Below are positions 8,785 through 14,916 of a stretch of 40,043 nucleotides of DNA, piece after piece (position 1 is the stretch's first letter; each line of letters starts with the position of its first letter). The notes under the pieces were generated by a model. The model made no database searches, was not told the DNA's origin, and worked only from the letters and a program-made list of their open reading frames with translations. The translations under genes and the position numbers were made by a program. Source of the DNA: a virus; the IMG/VR virus record IMGVR_UViG_3300020428_000028, positions 1 through 40,043 of that record; one strand, 5' to 3'.

Positions 8785-8935
8785 CTTCTACTTTCTCCAA
8801 GCTAATATAAATTGTATTTTCTCTATCAAGTAAGTCGCCATGAAAGAGACGAGCGTGTTCAGCATTACCAAACAACATCTCCCAATCTTTTTCAGTCCCA
8901 TCACTTTGGGATGTACCCCATTTAATTAAGATCAT
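8777..8935 (-). CDS. Uncharacterised protein, 52 aa
   Basis: Unrecognised. Starts MILIKWGTSQSDGTEKDWEM and has a mixed beta-alpha composition with an acidic end (LEKVEDE). No signal peptide or membrane segment. Its ATG lies within the last codons of the upstream 49-aa gene (14-nt overlap) and its stop overlaps the next start, placing it in a run of four tiny coupled ORFs. A GAGGAAGATGAAG purine-rich stretch upstream could serve as ribosome-binding site. Confidence 0.65.
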   Translation of the reverse strand: MILIKWGTSQSDGTEKDWEMLFGNAEHARLFHGDLLDRENTIYISLEKVEDE

Positions 8936-9071
8936 CTTCATCTTCCTCGTCAACCATTAAGATTATTTCAAAGCCACCGTCAAGCTTTTCAAACTTCCAC
9001 TGCCAGTTCTCGCCATGATATTTGCTCAGCAAACTATCTAGTTCATCTAAAAAAGTTAAGTCACCTTTCAT
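8922..9071 (-). CDS. Uncharacterised acidic protein, 49 aa
   Basis: Unrecognised. Starts MKGDLTFLDELDSLLSKYHG and ends in an acidic run (VDEEDEDDLN). The profile is helix plus short strands. An AGGAGATAGAT ribosome-binding element precedes the ATG, one of several near-identical initiation sequences in this block. It is the first ORF after the 187-nt hairpin-rich non-coding stretch, so that stretch forms its leader on a read-through transcript. Confidence 0.68.
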   Translation of the reverse strand: MKGDLTFLDELDSLLSKYHGENWQWKFEKLDGGFEIILMVDEEDEDDLN

Positions 9072-9258
9072 ATCTATCTCCTAATTAAAGTGGATGGAGA
9101 TGCTGGCGTAGCTTCTATAAATTTCCTCACCCGTCACAGCTCACGCAGTCTCCACTACGGATTTAAAGTTTACTCTTGGTCGTTTGCTTGTGGTAGTAAA
9201 CCACCTCCTCATCGAGTGACCAAGCCCCGACTAGCCAGTTACTAGCTGGCGTGTTCGT
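9072..9258 (-). ncRNA. Hairpin-rich non-coding stretch, candidate structured RNA
   Basis: 187 nt without a credible ORF inside an otherwise gapless operon. Three helices are visible. (A) GCCAG 9234-9238 with CTGGC 9246-9250. (B) CTTGGTC 9175-9181 with GACCAAG 9218-9224, enclosing GTGGT/ACCAC (9190-9194, 9200-9204). (C) a long helix of 9096-9113 with 9138-9153: GGAGA/TCTCC, CTG/CAG, CGT/ACG and AGCT/AGCT, about 15 pairs with small bulges. No T-run follows any of them, so they are not ordinary terminators. It could be a processed small RNA or a cis-acting leader of the 49-aa gene. Strand is inferred from the surrounding operon. No match to a known RNA family is claimed. Confidence 0.5.
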
Positions 9259-9366
9259 TTACTCATCGTCATCTATATCATCTAATAAGTTACTTAATAA
9301 TATTAAAGCACAGCTAAGTCCATATAGAAGAACCATTAAAAATCCTAAGCCCAATAGTTCAGCCAC
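9259..9366 (-). CDS. Tiny membrane protein, 35 aa, GTG start
   Basis: Nearly all of it is one hydrophobic helix (residues about 3-27, LLGLGFLMVLLYGLSCALIL and following) with an acidic C-terminus (LLDDIDDDE). The start codon is GTG; AGGAGG lies 8 nt upstream inside the last codons of the preceding oxygenase gene, and the stop and start overlap as TAGTG. These signals make it credible despite its size. Function unknown; small phage membrane peptides often affect host envelope or lysis, but nothing here shows that. Confidence 0.65.
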   Translation of the reverse strand: MAELLGLGFLMVLLYGLSCALILLSNLLDDIDDDE

Positions 9367-9947
9367 TATCTTTTCCTCCTGTCGCCCAGTTTAATTGGAG
9401 ACTTATCTATCGTTGGATAGTCAGTCCATATAGTTATAGAATATTTCTCACCGCTTGTAAGCTTATTGCAAAAGTGCGGATGAGTTATACTGGCTGGCCA
9501 CATAACAAGCTCGCCTACACCCATGTCTTTATTTGAAAAGACTTCTTCGGGAAACATCAACTCTCCTCCCTCGTAGTCGTTGTTTAGTTTTATACTACCA
9601 CTTACATAACTTTCATCCCGATGAAGCGGCAAGAATGTTTGAAGCCCTGCCGCATACTTTATAGCAAAGATCTGATGTGGGTCAGGTATATCTGTATACA
9701 TTAGTTCTTGCAGTTGCGGAAACACTAAAGCTTTTAAGCCCATCTGAATGGTGTCAAAAAAATCTGGTAGCTCTTCTTTAAAGTATATGTCTTGGGTAAA
9801 GTAATCCTCATCGTCTGCTTCAGATCCCCAAGTATTTAACTCATTGCATTTGTTTAAAATGAATTCGCTAAACTCTTTAGTTAAAAAGGGCGTAGTGAAT
9901 ATATAAGGTGCTTTCTGTTCTATCTTAGGGTCTTCAAAAAAATTCAT
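9366..9947 (-). CDS. 2OG-Fe(II) oxygenase, PLOD/prolyl-hydroxylase type
   Basis: Second dioxygenase of the window, 193 aa and clearly different in sequence from the one at 2952-3509. Metal ligands are H109 and D111 (LPLHRDESYVSGS) and a distal His in SITHPHFCNKL (H156 or H158). The beta-helix strand LNNDYEGGELMFPEE and the closing GEKYSITIW match the lysyl/prolyl hydroxylase-like subfamily. The usual 2OG-binding Arg is replaced by Lys168 in the visible alignment, which is tolerated in some families. A GGAGGAAATAG ribosome-binding site precedes the ATG. Substrate unknown. Confidence 0.87.
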   Translation of the reverse strand: MNFFEDPKIEQKAPYIFTTPFLTKEFSEFILNKCNELNTWGSEADDEDYFTQDIYFKEELPDFFDTIQMGLKALVFPQLQELMYTDIPDPHQIFAIKYAAGLQTFLPLHRDESYVSGSIKLNNDYEGGELMFPEEVFSNKDMGVGELVMWPASITHPHFCNKLTSGEKYSITIWTDYPTIDKSPIKLGDRRKR

Positions 9948-11079: not shown

Positions 11080-12023
11080 GCGGCAATACTCCAAGTATCT
11101 ATAGCAGTTCTTACAGTCTCTCTGCGCTTATGCAATCGAGCCGCAAGATTAGCAGGGTTAGCATTCTTAGATGATGGTGCATGACTAGACCAATCAGTAA
11201 GAGCATTGTAGACTGCCCATTGATTCGATCCGAAAGCAGGGACATAATGCTCTATAAATCTATCCCAGATGTAAGTAAGATTATTATTTGTTCTTGAATC
11301 AAGCATGATTGCAAATGGTGAGGCATATTTATACGCATCTTCTTTCATTTTATCTAAAGCAGATGTAGCATTGACTGTTCTGGCAAAGAACTTAAACGCA
11401 TCAGCCTCAGACATTTCTGTCTTCATCCAAGTACTCCACTGTTCTCTTTCGTTCTCGAAAGCATCAAGGCATTTGACTATTACGTTCGAGCCATGCTCAA
11501 TATCTAAACCTTTCATGTGCTTAGATTTATACACTGCAACAGTACCAGAAGTAAAGACTTGAGTATTCAAGCAAGCCGCTTGGTGCGCCCCAACACTAAT
11601 CATGAACGGCCAAGTACTATCAAGTGACGTAGTAGCTAATAGCTCTAGCGTTGCTGTGTCACCGTCTGGAGTAGGGTAAGTATGATGCGGCATAGTATAT
11701 CTTACATAAGTTCTACCGCCATTGTGAGACATCTGAATGTCTTCAGTGATGCCTTCAAGATTAAGATCAGATCGCTCTATAATCTTACGGGCAGACTCGA
11801 TCATATCTCTAGGAGCTACTGGCACATAGCGTTTGCCATGAACACCAAGCTCTGAACCATCGTCATCACGATAAACAATACGCTTACTGCAAGTCTTTTC
11901 ACCGTATGGAGTATCGTAAGTCAAAGCACCCTCGAAGATTCCAAAGCCTGCTTCGCCATAGCCATTAAGTCTTATGTTATCCATTGCTGATTTGTTGCGG
12001 TACATATTAAATACATTGTTCAT
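11076..12023 (-). CDS. DUF932 domain protein
   Basis: A 315-aa protein of the DUF932 (phage/plasmid-like protein) family. Features typical of it are the beta-rich N-terminal half (GKRYVPVAPRDMIESARKII, then SHNGGRTYVRYTMPH), the central LLATTSLDSTWPFMISVGAH segment, and the C-terminal helical part with WDRFIEHYVPAFGSNQWAVY. The family occurs widely in phages and plasmids without a proven biochemical role. It is the largest gene of the 8.6-12.5 kb block. AGGA lies about 8 nt before the ATG, and a 10-bp hairpin lies in its leader. Confidence 0.85.
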   Translation of the reverse strand: MNNVFNMYRNKSAMDNIRLNGYGEAGFGIFEGALTYDTPYGEKTCSKRIVYRDDDGSELGVHGKRYVPVAPRDMIESARKIIERSDLNLEGITEDIQMSHNGGRTYVRYTMPHHTYPTPDGDTATLELLATTSLDSTWPFMISVGAHQAACLNTQVFTSGTVAVYKSKHMKGLDIEHGSNVIVKCLDAFENEREQWSTWMKTEMSEADAFKFFARTVNATSALDKMKEDAYKYASPFAIMLDSRTNNNLTYIWDRFIEHYVPAFGSNQWAVYNALTDWSSHAPSSKNANPANLAARLHKRRETVRTAIDTWSIAA

Positions 12024-14530: not shown

Positions 14531-14547
14531 GGCGATTTTCCTCTAGT

Positions 14548-14635
14548 TGGTTTATTAAATTACTTAAAGATTCTAAAAAATACCTTTTTCACTTTAGTTC
14601 AAAAGTATTTTTTAGAATCGTAATTTAATAAACCA
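14548..14635. repeat. Very long near-perfect palindrome (16 + 15 bp arms)
   Basis: Left arm 14548-14583 and right arm 14605-14635. TGGTTTATTAAATTAC pairs exactly with 14620-14635, and GATTCTAAAAAATAC (14569-14583) pairs exactly with 14605-14619. A 5-nt bulge (TTAAA, 14564-14568) sits on the left side only. The loop is 21 nt. It occupies the leader of the 162-aa early gene, starting 17 nt before its ATG. The stem is almost pure A/T, unlike a normal terminator, and would form a long leader hairpin in RNA or a cruciform in DNA. Confidence 0.9.
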
Positions 14636-14638
14636 CCT

Positions 14639-14682
14639 TCACCTTACTTTAAAACAGTTATTAAAGTTTTAAAGTAAGGTGA
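14639..14682. repeat. Perfect 17-bp inverted repeat with T-tail
   Basis: TCACCTTACTTTAAAAC (14639-14655) is the reverse complement of 14666-14682, with a 10-nt loop (AGTTATTAAA). On the plus strand TTTTTT follows immediately (14684-14689), so in that direction it looks like an intrinsic terminator, although no plus-strand gene lies upstream. In the minus direction it is part of the early leader. It lies 4 nt from the palindrome at 14548-14635. Confidence 0.88.
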
Positions 14683-14771
14683 TTTTTTAACCAGCTTCAT
14701 AAACTTAACCAGACTTCTAAGCTCTGCTTAGTTAATGCTACAAGCCATTGAAATCTTTGAAGACTTCCGAG

Positions 14772-14916
14772 AAGATTCTAAAGAATCTTAAAAGTCTCTA
14801 AAGCTCCACAATTTGTAAACTAGAGCTACGCTCTTTAAAGGCTTTGAAGCCCTTTGAAGACTTTTAAAGTCTTTACAGGCTATGCAGAGGTGTCCGTCAA
14901 GACTTTTAAAGTCTTT
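14772..14916. repeat. Cluster of short palindromic boxes in the early leader
   Basis: Two identical 18-bp copies of AAGACTTTTAAAGTCTTT lie at 14857-14874 and 14899-14916 (42 nt apart). A third palindrome AAGATTCT-AA-AGAATCTT lies at 14772-14789, and many partial CTTTAAAG/GACTTC relatives lie between and beyond (for example 15029-15043). Such spaced palindromes look like binding sites for a dimeric protein, or replication-origin iterons. They lie downstream of both minus-strand promoters. Confidence 0.7.

Follow-up and report, generated by a model that had tools for sequence, protein, structure and literature searches.

The window, a 40,043-base virus record from IMG/VR (IMGVR_UViG_3300020428_000028), encodes a DNA polymerase whose best relatives among cultured phages are those of the Pelagibacter phages HTVC103P, HTVC104P and HTVC115P (48%). 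Because the polymerase is closest to these three, the window phage is termed pelagiphage-like here, a name taken from polymerase likeness, with a putative host at most. The stretch 9072-9258 is located in a block of minus-strand genes between an ORF of 35 aa (9259-9366) and one of 49 aa (8922-9071), upstream of the genes for a single-strand-binding protein, a primase and the polymerase, whose order is the same in the HTVC103P annotation. The RNA described below lies about 5.3 kb from the start of the operon and has a G+C content of 0.50 compared to 0.398 for the genome. Upstream of it a 2OG-Fe(II) oxygenase-like gene is encoded (9366-9947); the surrounding genes differ among relatives. Elsewhere in the window, the noncoding gap 14531-14787 separates divergent operons and is likely the promoter region for both. 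Relatives match this gap in inverted orientation too and it thus holds an inverted repeat.

Within 9072-9258 no minus-strand ORF of at least 30 aa was found, stops occurring in every minus-strand frame, and the plus-strand ORF 9090-9245 (GTG start, 51 aa) is lost in homologues. This agrees with an earlier note on this DNA, which had seen no credible ORF in the 187 nt and had named a conserved ORF as an observation that would speak against a structured RNA. Such an ORF was looked for and was absent, as the homologues differ by single-base indels. The folding energy of 203 nt was z = -1.03 for the minus strand and z = -1.65 for the plus strand, and that of the 5' 90 nt was z = -2.51. Since the whole stretch is not significant, folding energy was rejected as proof of structure and the case for an RNA rests on comparison: it is conservation with compensatory change, rather than energy, that raises the predicted structure above chance.

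IMG/VR was searched by protein and by pattern, and eight further distinct contigs with homologues of the RNA core were identified. L001/L002, L004 and L016 belong to the same lineage as the window, and L021, L023/L024, L025 and L026 to others; L015, L017 and L020 are duplicates of the contigs of L001, L004 and L002, respectively, and the RNA cores of L023 and L024 are identical. The carriers span three genome types, namely the pelagiphage-like lineage of the window, a T7-like phage with an integrase, its own RNA polymerase and a ClpX-like protein (L021), and a lineage with a MoxR-like AAA ATPase and a different DNA polymerase (L023-L026). The RNA is nearly unchanged across no fewer than three marine phage types that differ in other respects, and in blastn comparisons of L021, L023, L024, L025 and L026 with the whole window it was the sole DNA similarity. 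A covariance model built from the nine sequences recovered exactly the known copies from the loci and no others at E up to 10, the sequences used to build it matching by construction. On the whole carrier records it found one copy each, plus a chance-level match in G002 (E 0.1).

The RNA is missing from the relatives L003 and L013 and was not found in nine related cultured phages, HTVC103P included. Two strict patterns gave no match in 84,980 prokaryote genomes, a strictness which could miss distant relatives, and blastn against plasmids gave no homologue. Weak blastn matches to Hafnia, Citrobacter, Pseudomonas, Spiroplasma and Erwinia phages and to two plasmids covered 20-32 nt with E 0.2 to 2 and were taken as chance. 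L014, L018 and L019 were rejected as homologues, sharing a common 18-nt word only, and a second stretch common to G002/G003 and G005 proved to be a small protein gene. The window and L023 lineages have a small protein (xAPxGxHWMK..., about 50 aa) in common (L045:165-308, L041:3952-4104).

The fold supported by the comparison is predicted to consist of five stems and two pseudoknots (Table 1). S1 and S2 form a predicted H-type pseudoknot that carries P3 and includes an A-rich linker, CAAACAAA (9189-9182). The variation in S1 comprises solely changes of the G-C to G-U type. S2 is changed on both sides in L004 (GGCC/GGCU) and L021 (GAUC/GAUU), the outer pair of P3b occurs in four forms (AU, CG, GU, UG), and P4 of L021 reads CGUGU/AUGCG, a compensated change. 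Pseudoknot 2 carries two double changes in L021 (GGGGU/ACCCU) and retains 4 bp in L023, L025 and L026. P5 encloses a variable arm which is 34 nt longer in L025/L026. The Shine-Dalgarno sequence of the next gene comes just after the RNA. In L023-L026 the core is extended on its 3' side by a second domain of about 150 nt, which is conserved among these phages and lacking in the window and L021; it possibly has a closing helix AGCGUG/CACGCU and also a hairpin AAGGU-7nt-ACCUU.

Table 1. Predicted elements of the structured RNA and adjoining features (coordinates of the window, unless a contig is named).
Feature	Coordinates	Strand	Elements and support
Whole structured RNA core	9095..9254	-	160 nt, 5' end 9254; homologues, model E 3e-38 or better
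P1 hairpin	9234..9250	-	GCCAG 9250-9246 / CUGGC 9238-9234; paired 9/9, invariant
S1, first helix of pseudoknot 1	9212..9230	-	UCGGG 9230-9226 / CUCGA 9216-9212; paired 9/9
S2, second helix of pseudoknot 1	9178..9221	-	GGUC 9221-9218 / GACC 9181-9178
P3 hairpin	9190..9204	-	GUGGU 9204-9200 / ACCAC 9194-9190; double-sided changes in 4/5 pairs (structural register)
P3b hairpin	9166..9177	-	AAG 9177-9175 / CUU 9168-9166; covariation
P4 hairpin	9144..9159	-	CGUAG 9159-9155 / CUGCG 9148-9144; loop UGGAGA 9154-9149
P5	9102..9140	-	GCUG 9140-9137 / CAGC 9105-9102; paired 9/9, one pair varies on one side
Pseudoknot 2	9095..9154	-	P4 loop UGGAGA 9154-9149 / tail UCUCCA 9100-9095; double changes
Shine-Dalgarno and start codon of next gene	9069..9082	-	AGGAG 9082-9078, start codon 9071-9069; sequence, ORF list
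Second domain	L023:1800-1960, L024:4190-4340, L025:8280-8434, L026:8715-8867	-	conserved in lineage

In the unedited MAFFT alignment A1 (P1, S1, a 7-bp S2, P4 and P5) 97.0% of cells were paired and three pairs were changed on both sides, while slid versions of the structure were paired to 17 to 44%. RNAalifold without a supplied structure returned P1, S1, P4 and P5 together with a hairpin that replaces the upper S2. For the refined model each sequence was segmented by anchors. The model fits 9/9 sequences, with 99.1% of cells paired and double-sided changes in 10/36 pairs. The A1 count was equalled by 3/500 shuffles, the ten pairs of the refined register stand against a mean of 3.1 and its six pairs without P3 against 1.2, in both cases with 0/5000 shuffles as good, figures which are not probabilities because the register was selected for its fit and because the relatedness of the sequences persists in the shuffles. 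The compensatory changes are located in S2, P3, P3b, P4 and pseudoknot 2. P1 is invariant and therefore beyond a test by covariation, and in S1 and P5, which vary on one side only and in which most pairs hardly vary, covariation is uninformative. A longer-tail MAFFT alignment (A3) was left out, as it misplaced the 3' end of L025/L026.

The earlier note had drawn three inverted repeats, all of which are present as letters, and had stated that none is followed by a T-run, which is true on the minus strand. It correctly took the stretch for an RNA, but two of the helices that it drew are partly wrong. The 5-bp hairpin 9234-9250 is P1, and the enclosed 5-bp hairpin 9190-9204 is P3, kept in all homologues with strong covariation support. 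From the 7-bp helix 9218-9224/9175-9181 four pairs were kept (9221-9218/9181-9178), now as one half of a pseudoknot; the remaining three 3' positions pair better in the local hairpin 9177-9166, as P3b competes with the upper part of this helix and covaries better. The 15-bp helix 9096-9113/9138-9153 did not hold up: it has 14 pairs in the window and 7 to 11 in other lineages, without compensation, and its arms are divided among P4, P5 and the loop-tail pseudoknot. The covariance analysis that the note had proposed yielded compensatory changes, though none for the invariant P1 or for this last helix.

Comparison with known families gave no assignment, in line with the earlier statement that no RNA family was recognised. 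The Rfam 15 covariance models did not match the window at the gathering score, with chance hits only at E up to 10, and there was likewise no match in L021, L023 and L025. ARAGORN detected no tRNA or tmRNA in the window or the carrier loci. An intrinsic terminator (G+C-rich hairpin plus T-run) was not found on the minus strand, and on the plus strand there was one weak match at 9234-9250 compared to 0.9 expected. The previous view of a phage structured RNA rather than a terminator is consequently borne out by the homologues and their covariation. The TnpB zinc-ribbon domain PF07282 was absent from the eight carrier records, which are possibly fragments, with a positive control in six genomes, and the reverse transcriptase domain PF00078 indicative of retrons was absent from the carrier records with a positive control in three genomes. 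The RRXRR domain PF14239 (IscB) had no match in the carrier records, its control being empty as well, and the HEARO and intron models in Rfam did not match. We found no report of this RNA in the open-access literature and nothing related on small RNAs of pelagiphages. The sequence comparison indicates that the RNA probably represents a real, undescribed family of structured RNAs of marine-metagenome phages.

All copies run in the same direction as the operon and are encoded upstream of replication genes. The genes on either side differ. Downstream, seven different genes were found: the 49-aa protein of the window and genes whose products begin with MILIKWG (L001, L016), MSKGSR (L004), MRYYAIDG (L021), MASVRMT (L023), MKTKIHVNQ (L025) and MGTNEYL (L026). 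There is accordingly no consistent downstream gene class, which argues against a gene-specific riboswitch or leader. In L023/L024 the RNA is flanked by the AAA ATPase and MASVR genes, and in L025/L026 it is located further down the operon. Presence or absence among relatives and this changed position point to a putative exchangeable module of early operons. In L026 the slot which holds the RNA in L024 (AAA ATPase/MASVR) is occupied by about 270 nt of unrelated noncoding sequence (11300-11590, minus strand) without an Rfam match, a phage blastn match or unusual stability; it may be another RNA gene. A gene for a single-subunit phage RNA polymerase (PF00940) was not detected in the window record. 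Such a polymerase is present in the relative G001 (the RNA-less L013) and in the unrelated carrier G004 (L021).

We tentatively favour the explanation, to which we give somewhat less than an even chance, that the RNA leaves the operon transcript and works in trans as infection proceeds. Transcription of the minus-strand early operon would yield a polycistronic RNA from which the compact noncoding RNA would be cut or protected; once freed, it would bind a protein or an RNA of the host or the phage early in infection, with a possible role in host takeover or counter-defence. The RNA has a structure supported by covariation, occurs in unrelated phage backgrounds, is present or absent among relatives, follows the direction of its operon and has no coding capacity. 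Its excision, its action in trans and its target are inferred. Counted in favour of an accessory module were the compensatory changes, the lone DNA similarity, the changing neighbours, the absence from L003 and L013, the change of slot and the higher G+C content. Neither a promoter nor a terminator of its own was seen near the RNA on the minus strand, so that a free RNA would need processing, and the fact that it always runs with the operon counts against action in trans, being compatible with a role in cis. More doubtful is the extended proposal of a doubly pseudoknotted, RNA-only accessory gene which would move between unrelated marine phages without a protein partner, occupy exchangeable early-operon slots and act in trans on a host component (defence system, ribosome or RNA polymerase).

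By analogy to the HK022 put RNA and the Bacillus EAR (epsC motif), the nascent RNA could instead bind the host RNA polymerase in cis and let it pass terminators in the long early operon. Such an element would be indifferent to the next gene, in keeping with the seven downstream contexts. All copies follow the direction of the operon and lie ahead of replication genes, and since the window record lacks a single-subunit polymerase gene, the host polymerase probably reads the operon. Of these two main readings we consider antitermination the less likely, and what speaks for action in trans is that the slots are exchangeable, that the RNA lies deep in the window operon, away from its start, and that the L021 phage has a T7-type polymerase; epsC and the other Rfam families also failed to match. 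Quite improbable is a translation switch in which the tail UCUCC pairs either with the P4 loop or with the Shine-Dalgarno sequence of the next gene, thereby masking it. The tails of the window RNA and of L016 can pair with AGGAGAU by 6 bp, about equal to the P4 loop, and the window energies are similar (-9.0 kcal/mol for the Shine-Dalgarno sequence vs -8.1 kcal/mol for the loop). In L001/L004, however, the Shine-Dalgarno sequence has become AGGAGC, an uncompensated change that leaves 4 bp of pairing. The tail of L021 has changed together with the P4 loop, its better partner (-6.9 vs -4.3 for the Shine-Dalgarno sequence). The start codons of L023-L026 lie more than 130 nt away, and the gene under control differs each time. 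Masking, not kept in L001, L004 and L021, was thus rejected as a general role, and of the small RNA or cis-regulatory leader considered in the earlier note the leader part is weakened by the seven downstream genes and the tail pairing which is not maintained. Less probable again is an element of mRNA processing or stability which separates upstream and downstream messages; the RNA is exactly intergenic and runs in the same direction as its neighbours, but the conservation of loop and junction (CAAACAAA, UAAAUCCGU) goes beyond the need of a simple stability stem. Least probable is a guide RNA that stands alone or is left over from a mobile element (IscB/TnpB omega RNA, retron or intron). The compact form, the pseudoknots, the variable flanks and the movement between genomes would fit, but the PF07282 and PF00078 searches and the HEARO and intron models were negative, and the flanks are complete genes instead of split exons. 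A CsrA sponge (GGA in loops) was dropped, since the P4 loop of L021 has no GGA.

In the phages that infect abundant ocean bacteria many small early genes have no assigned function, and noncoding RNAs among them are little explored. A strongly constrained RNA that spreads alone between phage types would mark a function useful in infection, and the 160 nt form a defined target that can be deleted, used as bait in pull-downs and studied for its structure. Annotators should bear in mind that, where phage operons are tightly packed, a gap of 150-300 nt can hide an RNA gene.

Among known systems, the c4 antisense-type small RNAs of phages are likewise noncoding RNAs made in a phage operon; the present RNA has no apparent complementary target and shows no match to them in sequence or structure. 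The omega RNAs of IscB/TnpB (HEARO) are similar in being compact, pseudoknotted and in a mobile context and differ by their nuclease gene, none of which was found here (the IscB control being empty), and by the missing Rfam match. The epsC motif (EAR) and the HK022 put RNA are structured RNAs within operons that are indifferent to the following gene. The present RNA shares the intra-operon position and the immaterial following gene, but sits deep in the operon and has no Rfam match, and the analogy is one of a putative mode of action. The entry of the epsC motif includes a pseudoknot (PMC2864571). The manA, wcaG and PhotoRC-II motifs derive from marine metagenomes and cyanophages (Weinberg et al. 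2010, PMC2864571). For manA a questionable pseudoknot and other contexts were described (PMC2864571), unlike the two supported pseudoknots and the inconsistent following gene class of the present RNA. Although the Rfam models of these three motifs do not match here, they are the nearest in kind, if not in sequence: structured RNAs found by comparison, mostly marine and carried by phages (PMC2864571).
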